In this document: positions 61,101 through 63,477 of the stretch, piece by piece | How the letters are laid out: the number at the start of each line of letters is the position of its first letter | Numbering within the stretch: the stretch's first letter is position 1 | Assembly: GCA_903813345.2 (NCBI GenBank) | Contig: CAIIXF020000008.1 | Coordinates: 7,328,366 to 7,392,365 of the forward strand | DNA length: 64,000 nt | Source: Owenia fusiformis | Taxonomy: Eukaryota; Annelida; Polychaeta; Sabellida; Oweniidae | Reading direction: 5' to 3' | Notes under the pieces: generated by a model | The model's input: only the letters and a program-made list of their open reading frames with translations | Database searches by the model: none | What the model was told of the DNA's origin: nothing | Translations under genes and position numbers: made by a program

Positions 61101-63477
61101 TATCGGGGGCCTCCAGTCTTCCCCCTGTAGTCACAAACTCCATGACTTCTTGGTTCCCGCGCCCGGGGTAGGGCATATATCCTAATGAGAAAACCTCCCA
61201 CAGTAGGATTCCAAATGACCACACATCAGTTTTTGAGGTAAATACACCATCTAAGAAGGCCTCTGGGGGCATCCATTTTACAGGGAGCATAGCCTTACCA
61301 CCTTTTCTGTAGTAATCAGCCCTAAAACACAATGTAAAACATTACATTTTGCCTCAATATATTTCATTTGGTGAATCAGATCATAATCATTATAAATCAA
61401 TATCATTATCATAATCATTATGAATCAAAATCATTATCATAATCATTATGAATCATAGTCATTATCATAATCATTATACAAGATAAAGTGTATTATATAT
61501 TTTGTCTTCATATCTTCAAAATTGATAGATAATTGAATGATGTATCACTGGTAAGAAAATCGAAGGGATTGGTCTATGAAAAGCATCTGTGTAAAAAAGC
61601 GTCAATTACTTATTGATCACCCCTCATAAATAATTATCATAATCGTAATTTGGTATTAAAAAATGCATTAACATGAGAAAATTCCAATGACAATGCTATC
61701 TAGTAGTGATATAATAAACAGATGTAAATCAATAAAAAATAAAAATCATAATAATAAACAACAATTGAATGAATGTTAGGAAGTTCTTGAGACACTTGTC
61801 TTGTCCGTTACATAATACATATGCCATAAAAGGATTTATCGATAACATCTAAGTTTGATTAACAGATTAAATAAGATGAGACATAATATCTTTCGAGTAC
61901 CCTAGGCTTTACTCACTTCAAAATGTTCTTACACTCGTGTCAATTTCATTTTAATACTTGGATAAATATACTTTTGTCAATCAATAAATCTCAGGCATAA
62001 TATATTTTGATAAAGTTATCTGAGTGTGCGACCATATCATCTCATCCAATACAACACACACAAAAATTCAATAAACGAGGTACCTGTATATATCTCGAGC
62101 CATTCCAAAATCAGCGATTTTAGCTATTCTGTTTGGGCCCTTTGTTGTGAGTAGACAATTTCTCGCTGCGATGTCTCTGTGGATAAAGTGGTTTTCCTCG
62201 AGATATTTGCAGCCTTTAGCAATGTCAACTGAGAGTCTTAAGAGATCTGGCATACTCAATGGCGAGGGAAGTTCCTGAAAATGAATTCGAAGAATACATT
62301 ATGTAAAAGTTATGTAGACATCACTATAACACCACAGTATCTTTTCAATTCAATTGGCACTGATTTTTGTTGTTTTCCAAATCGTTGTTACATCTTGTAT
62401 CAAACAAATAGATCATTTTAACAACTTAATTCCTCACATATGCAATACGAAATATTAAATGATTAATTAAATCATAAAACATTTATCTTAATAAGTTAAG
62501 ATTTTAACACCTGGTAATGATAATTATTTCATAATACTTCAAACATATAATATAATAAATAAAACATATAATAGATAATCCCATTACAATATGACATAAA
62601 CACTATCTAAATTATGATTGATTTGAAAAATATGACAAATCAACAGGGAAAAAATATGATTAATTTAGCAATTATTCAAATATTCTGGTGATTAGAAAGC
62701 ATTATTTACAACCTTGGAAACAAATACAGGTTTTAGGATGTTTACTTGCATATACAGGTTTTGGTATGCTTGCTAGCTTAGCTAGCTTACAGGTTTTGGG
62801 ATGTACACTAATTTAAAGGTTTTGGAATGTACATTAACTTAAATGTTTTGGAATGTACATTAACTTTCAGGTTTTGGGATGTTCATTAGCTTTTAAGTTT
62901 GGAATGTACATTAACTTAAAGCTTTTGGAACATACAGTAAACTTAACATGTTTTGGAATGTATATTTACTTACATATTTTGGAATGTACATTAACTTACA
63001 GGTTTTGGAATGTACATTAACTTTCAGGTTTTGGGATGTTCATTAACTTTTAGGTTCGGAATGTACATTAACTTACAGGTTTTGGAATGTACATTAACTT
63101 AAAGGTTTTGGAATGTACATTAACTTACAGGTTTTGGAATGTACATTCACTTTTAGGTTTGGAATGTACATTAACTTACAAGTTTTGGAATGTACATTAA
63201 CTTACAGGTTTTGGAATGTACATTAACTTTCAGGTTTTGGGATGTTCATTAGCTTTTAGGTTCGGAATGTACATTAACTTACAGGTTTTGGCCTTGAAGC
63301 TCTGAGGAATGTTTTCACATCTCCGCCCTCTAGAAGTTCCAGAATAATGAAGCGTGGATGTTTCTCGAAACAAACTCCAATCAAGCGAACAATATTTGGA
63401 TGGTTAAACTTGCTCATGATTAAGGCCTCCATCAGGAAATCCATTTCTGCCTGATCGGTACATAAAGCAGGAAGCGT
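58120..63477 (-). CDS. ALK: ALK/LTK-family receptor tyrosine kinase, 3' half
   Basis: Four coding exons on the minus strand: 63283-63477, 62084-62274, 61085-61321, 58120-59062. They give 522 residues running from just before helix alpha-C to the stop; the extracellular region, the membrane helix and the VAIK lysine lie beyond the right edge. Marks in order: alpha-C FLMEALIM, hinge [12 protein letters not shown], catalytic loop [19 protein letters not shown], activation loop YRADYY (the ALK/insulin-receptor YxxxYY pattern), [18 protein letters not shown], and [17 protein letters not shown], which is ALK-specific. The tail of about 285 residues is rich in Ser, Pro and Asn, has several SP sites, ends MNSWC, and contains no tyrosine. 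The gene is convergent with DRC7. A possible polyadenylation signal (AATAAA on the minus strand) lies at 58073-58078. Very sure for the family; LTK versus ALK cannot be separated without the ectodomain. Confidence 0.93.
59588..59848. repeat. About 130-bp tandem duplication in the last ALK intron
   Basis: Two copies share TTCAGCTTAG, TATAATGTCATGAAAGC and TTGTCTTTGTATAAGAAAAA. Confidence 0.8.
59947..60230. mobile_element. MITE with CAGGGTGAGTCAA ends
   Basis: CAGGGTGAGTCAAAAAAG at the left and, inverted, CAGGGTGAGCCAAGTAAC at the right, both continuing through ACATTTGT-type sequence (284 bp). Mariner-like ends, no ORF. Confidence 0.75.
60617..60715. mobile_element. Decayed GTGTTC-module MITE
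   Basis: TAGTGTTCACCTTGGAGGTGTT at the left and GTAGAGGTTCTATTTTT at the right resemble eroded copies of the 11824/32635 type. Confidence 0.4.
61011..61080. repeat. 17-bp tandem repeat (4 units) at an ALK splice donor
   Basis: Four copies of ACATATTGTAATATTNT run up to the donor (61081-61084) of the ALK exon 61085-61321. Confidence 0.85.
61385..61480. repeat. ATCATTAT tandem repeat in an ALK intron
   Basis: There are three units of about 30 bp, CATTATCATAATCATTATGA type. Confidence 0.75.
62727..63282. repeat. 26-bp minisatellite at an ALK splice donor, about 21 units
   Basis: Units read ACAGGTTTTGGAATGTACAT then TAACTT. On the minus strand that is CCAAAACCT followed by GTAAGTTAATGTACATT. 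CCAAAACCT is the last nine bases of the ALK exon 63283-63477 and GTAAGT its donor. At least four units carry the exact 16-mer. Confidence 0.92.

Follow-up and report, generated by a model that had tools for sequence, protein, structure and literature searches.

The window analysed here, a 64,000-nucleotide stretch of the Owenia fusiformis contig CAIIXF020000008.1 (positions 7,328,366 to 7,392,365), carries on its minus strand a receptor kinase gene, ALK1, whose encoded kinase has its best match in ALK among solved structures (E ~1e-107), followed by ROS (5e-80). The kinase exon at 63283-63477 comprises 195 nt in frame 0 (TLPALC...RASRPKP), and its last nine nucleotides, CCAAAACCT, also form the start of the first unit of a tandem array. 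The exon/intron boundary at 63283/63282 reads CCAAAACCT on the exon side and GTAAGTTAATG on the intron side, with the true 5' splice site GTAAGT at 63277-63282 (minus strand); the upstream exon is in frame, and the next exon starts from 62274, preceded by CAG. The intron between them (62275-63282, minus strand) is 1008 nt long, slightly more than half of it being occupied by the array. Regarding the true donor, its exon side, CCT, is poor, and its match to the U1 consensus comes chiefly from GTAAGT.

The array is a minisatellite located at 62727-63291 on the minus strand, with head-to-tail tandem units whose length falls within ~10-100 bp and with variant copies present. Tandem Repeats Finder (TRF) reports a 26-bp period in 19.5 copies at 62786-63291 (score 679), and a wrap-around alignment resolves 21 units of CCAAAACCTGTAAGTTAATGTACATT from 63291 down, with an incomplete one behind them that reaches about 62727. 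Unit 1 (63291-63266) straddles the exon/intron junction, being composed of the nine terminal bases of the exon, the true donor and 11 further intron bases, and four other units are identical to it at 26/26 bases. Both programs thus bear out the first-pass annotation, which had described a 26-bp unit made of the exon end plus its donor, adjoining the ALK exon and repeated with the exact donor context in at least four extra units. The 20-mer CCAAAACCTGTAAGTTAATG occurs exactly five times in the window, at the true site and at 63214, 63137, 63085 and 63008, and 12 times when up to two mismatches are allowed, compared to a mean of 0.01 and a maximum of 1 in dinucleotide shuffles. Genome-wide, all ten places of this 20-mer with 0-1 mismatch fall inside the ALK array; allowing up to two mismatches raises the number to 20, of which 12 belong to the array and eight lie elsewhere, while the reversed-pattern control gives five. 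A DNA search of the genome with the whole array returned a single match, its own locus, although this search skips very common words and a single-locus result is no proof of absence elsewhere. A dispersed satellite or transposon insertion was rejected, as only one locus was found in the genome at 0-1 mismatch.

A paralogue of this gene, ALK2, lies on the same contig (C8:28.34 Mb, loci L015 and L019), with an intron at the homologous position. Its exon ends with CGACCAAAATTG, encoding RPKL, followed by GTAAGA; the intron position is identical, and the bases CCAAAA (PK) are common to both exons. Moreover, the RPKP of the ALK1 exon is aligned with RPRP of solved ALK chains, which are presumably human. 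These correspondences show that the exon bases are older than the array and that the exon was its seed, the CCAAAA portion of the unit being coding sequence that predates the array. A second trace of its history is a 109-bp block containing the junction (63183-63291, minus strand), which begins with the last nine exon bases and has a second copy at 62977-63085, at an offset of 206 bp and with one mismatch. Such near identity indicates that the block of the true junction either donated a copy to the array or was itself replaced by array sequence, an event that is recent relative to the bulk of the array, so that the splice junction still participates in the turnover of its own copies.

Six decoy units retain GTAAGT, all within 309 nt (their first bases at 63205, 63179, 63128, 63076, 62999 and 62973, minus strand). 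Those at 63200-63205, 63123-63128, 63071-63076 and 62994-62999 belong to the 26/26 identical units, the one at 63174-63179 to a unit with one change and the one at 62968-62973 to a diverged unit. Since four decoys do not differ from the true site at any of 26 nt, only position and the upstream exon sequence locally favour the true donor. Donor scores, taken from a weight table, are 3.3-3.5 for five decoys and 4.0 for one, compared to 3.3 for the true donor. GT (+1/+2) is gone in 11 of 18 clean decoy units, a set that leaves out the partial tail as well as the two irregular units starting at 62799 and 62764, and takes unit 62956 minus two inserted bases. The earlier statement that most other units are near matches is correct for the overall sequence, but not for the GT. 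By copy count, no columns vary more than +1 and +2 (changed in 8/18 and 7/18 clean units); by kinds of change, the GT columns account for 3/20 (P 0.20), which is no excess, and on this basis selection against the decoy GTs was dropped as an explanation.

The use of any decoy, as well as retention of the intron, adds V-S-stop (GTA AGT TAA), the stop being the third codon. This in-frame TAA (63274-63276, minus strand) lies upstream of the exon bearing the HRD motif (ORF 62068-62298), in agreement with the first-pass annotation, which had gone on to propose a kinase-dead truncated receptor. That proposal is valid as a reading of the sequence; however, the TAA lies at least 68 nt upstream of the decoy junction, and upstream of later junctions as well, so that nonsense-mediated decay is likely by the usual rule, and a lost transcript would be a more likely product of decoy splicing than a protein.

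Considering these features together, the array has probably grown as a local neutral minisatellite, through tandem duplication of the last 9 nt of the exon together with 17 nt from the start of the intron, slippage and unequal exchange. The initial event would be the duplication spanning the junction, with expansion then proceeding via slippage and unequal exchange. The exon-proximal donor would be used nearly always, and occasional use of a decoy would lead to the premature stop and to degradation of the transcript; with such rare transcripts degraded, array length would have little effect. As the exon end and the donor are in register within the unit, exchange in register would restore a working junction, except where a GT-less unit is placed at the junction, a product that selection would eliminate. 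Neutral growth is supported by the position of the boundary, the identity of the units, the exon origin of CCAAAA, the copy of the junction block and the loss of GT, and also by the ladder counts, the myosin duplication in L098 and the frequency of arrays near exons described below. On the other side stand a possible competition between the six GTAAGT decoys and the true donor, and the three of eight mapped ALK donors that adjoin an array, a share above the 1/120 of other exon ends. The first-pass annotation had offered two readings of the array: growth by slippage from the end of the exon, which agrees with its start at the exon end, its single genomic locus, its conserved coding bases and its re-copied junction block, and a tunable splice buffer, for which no support was found.

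As a buffer, or productivity switch, the candidate decoys would divert a length-dependent fraction of ALK transcripts to the premature stop. Six intact GTAAGT decoys, four of them in an identical 26-nt context, and the same in-frame TAA reached from every decoy are consistent with this function. Nevertheless, the loss of GT in 11/18 clean units argues against it, and the 3/20 kinds of change in the GT columns (P 0.20) make neither preservation nor purging evident; the array in the homologous intron of the paralogue has no donor motif, and donor ladders show no excess genome-wide. Judged from these sequence features, a buffer is very unlikely. It may also be asked whether the array recruits U1 snRNP, thereby strengthening the true donor or suppressing premature polyadenylation, given that this donor fits the U1 consensus mostly through GTAAGT and that six further GTAAGT are found within 309 nt. 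This role is highly improbable, because GT retention is not in evidence among the units and because, among the 60 best kinase donor picks, 17 have T at -1 and none adjoins an array of at least three copies, which suggests that such donors manage unaided.

A precedent for repeated splice donors is found in the human gene IFI6, whose 12-nt repeat unit begins near the exon end and preserves the reading frame. The minisatellite of this gene (6-16, G1P3) was reportedly the subject of Turri, Cuin and Porter in Nucleic Acids Res 23:1854 (1995). As in IFI6, a tandem repeat gives one transcript several copies of a splice donor, and the ALK repeat also runs from the exon end with the donor inside its unit. 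In contrast to the 12-nt unit, which keeps the frame through a downstream copy, use of any decoy in the 26-nt ALK array would meet the stop at the third codon (TAA, 63276-63274). Two downstream repeat units of IFI6 are reported as used splice donors in a passage of PMC4526556, a point in favour of a splice buffer in ALK; the ALK decoys, in turn, are candidate donors. Besides IFI6, no donor-bearing array was found in literature titles and abstract openings, and such arrays may still exist in print; an excerpt of PMC12783039, on earthworm metallothionein introns, does not describe donor copies. The ALK case is thus a real and tidy minisatellite founded by a splice junction, with human IFI6 as its precedent and neutral growth as its best reading. 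Its interest lies in a splice junction being the founding unit of a minisatellite with which it still exchanges sequence, as seen by the 109-bp copy with one mismatch. It also offers a natural experiment on competition among identical 5' splice sites within a receptor kinase gene; if the decoys are silent, they would measure how strongly position alone selects a donor.

For an estimate of how common such arrays are, ladders of three GTAAGT were counted in the whole genome, giving 5968 (3024+2944) against 5876 (2949+2927) for the reversed pattern, while AGGTAAGT ladders are rarer than their reversed pattern (144, 95+49, against 344, 184+160); in both cases the matches overlap inside arrays, and the counts are not independent. 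By the ladder test, then, this genome does not favour arrays that carry a donor. Genome-wide seeding of arrays by donors was rejected, neither kind of ladder being in excess. In addition, 120 exon ends were sampled (60 kinase and 60 myosin, several per gene and with some flanks overlapping). The kinase places were hand-picked among the matches listed of 151 tyrosine-kinase matches, omitting the tandem fragments on C12, long open frames, ALK1, ALK2, some stop-containing frames and others; the myosin places were 60 of 92 myosin-head matches in roughly list order, with some skipped and several C9 exon copies included. The donor of each was the best GT by the weight table (115/120 scored at least 0), and the fetched flanks were 880 nt for kinases and 520 nt for myosins. 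An array of at least three copies is present in 14/120 fetched flanks, whereas only one of the 120 exon ends has an array starting near its donor (locus L124; 95% interval 0.02-4.6%).

Among eight mapped ALK donors, three adjoin an array: ALK1 63283 with its 26-bp units, ALK1 61085 and the paralogue's L015:1507. At the second, GTAAGTAGAATATTACAATAT runs on from +5 of the donor after the exon end 61085 as a 17-bp unit in 4.2 copies (61010-61080, minus strand). At the third, an 18-bp array starts at about +5 of the donor (block 1, L015 1254-1502 = L019 5918-6166) and continues in the same homologous intron of ALK2 as block 2 (L015 599-865 = L019 5263-5529); it was found solely in this intron, and the donor motif is not part of it. 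No array was reported by TRF beside the other five mapped donors (ALK1 65081 and 62084; ALK2 L019 2651, 2000 and 1456). The eight donors cover ALK1 from its N-lobe exon on; motif searches of L019 and L141 did not locate the N-lobe exon of ALK2, and its donor is therefore outside the eight.

This pattern raises the alternative of an ALK hot spot, in which a property of the donors, or an ancestral array predating the ALK duplication, yields arrays repeatedly. Set against the 1/120 of other exon ends, the 3/8 corresponds to P 0.0006, which becomes 0.008 when the index array is left out and ~0.017 for the homologous donor of the paralogue alone, but the pattern was noticed post hoc, the numbers are small and some of the exon ends sampled are not independent of one another. 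The cluster is treated as a lead. As for homology between the 26-bp and 18-bp arrays, consensus sequences were compared for six unit pairs, and 0, 6, 9, 47, 71 and 84 of 300 shuffles scored at least as high as observed, while permutation of whole-array columns gave 253 and 290 of 500, and the reversed-block control outscored the real block (28 and 21 against 19). An array predating the duplication was dropped, as a single hand-picked unit pair looked significant and column permutation revealed no homology. Moreover, comparison of the paralogue introns (L019 2000 and 1546 against window 61332-61084) shows that the 61085 intron is absent from ALK2, so that the 61085 array was not inherited jointly with ALK2 and is not common by descent. 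A hot spot is thus unlikely. A fuller version, in which ALK donors act as repeat nurseries where minisatellites with unrelated units are seeded repeatedly, the junction being maintained by exchange with decoys in concerted evolution, is a little more doubtful still.

Some further differences and repeats were observed around the ALK genes. The same comparison reveals an ALK2 intron after GGGAG (L019 2000) that is not present in ALK1. A 57-bp array in ALK2 (L019 6488-6835) resembles a single element, TATGTCACCAC...GTGGTGACATA, near 65075-65024 in the upstream neighbour of the window, directly after the ALK1 donor 65081, perhaps a dispersed repeat. Upstream of ALK2, L141 1-1707 carries a 33-bp array of about 52 copies.

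Repeats on the donor side are also seen in two myosin genes. In the exon at C10:4790704-4791304 (L098), a 17-bp duplication of 2.2 copies spans the exon end and the donor, reading ATCCAGAATCA followed by GTAAGT and then ATCCAGTATCAATAAGT; the second copy carries AATAAGT, its GT being lost and the donor dead. It is like the ALK array in copying the exon end with GTAAGT but has two copies only, and it represents an early-stage case of this architecture, so that one genome could serve to trace how decoy donors arise and decay. The intron at C9:5824213-5824813 (L124) has a 26-bp array of 18.9 copies from +9 of the donor; both this array and that of ALK adjoin a donor, although the unit of L124 does not contain it. 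Also on C9, at 37986009-37994334 (minus strand), at least 12 consecutive myosin-head matches, covering profile part ~18-84 at a spacing of 0.3-1.8 kb, look like an alternative-exon cluster of one myosin gene.

On C12, at 35.726 Mb, L140 343-2166 is a 131-bp tandem array of 13.9 copies, whose unit reads by eye as a tyrosine-kinase exon fragment (GRLPIRWMSPEAL). Among the matches listed, kinase fragments at the spacing of this 131-bp array form two clusters ~47 kb apart, the second at C12:35.775-35.778 Mb. Finally, a family of GTAAGTAGCTGA-like 12-bp arrays is present on contig C1, at 283883, 3420448, 3458935, 15989160 and others among the places listed.
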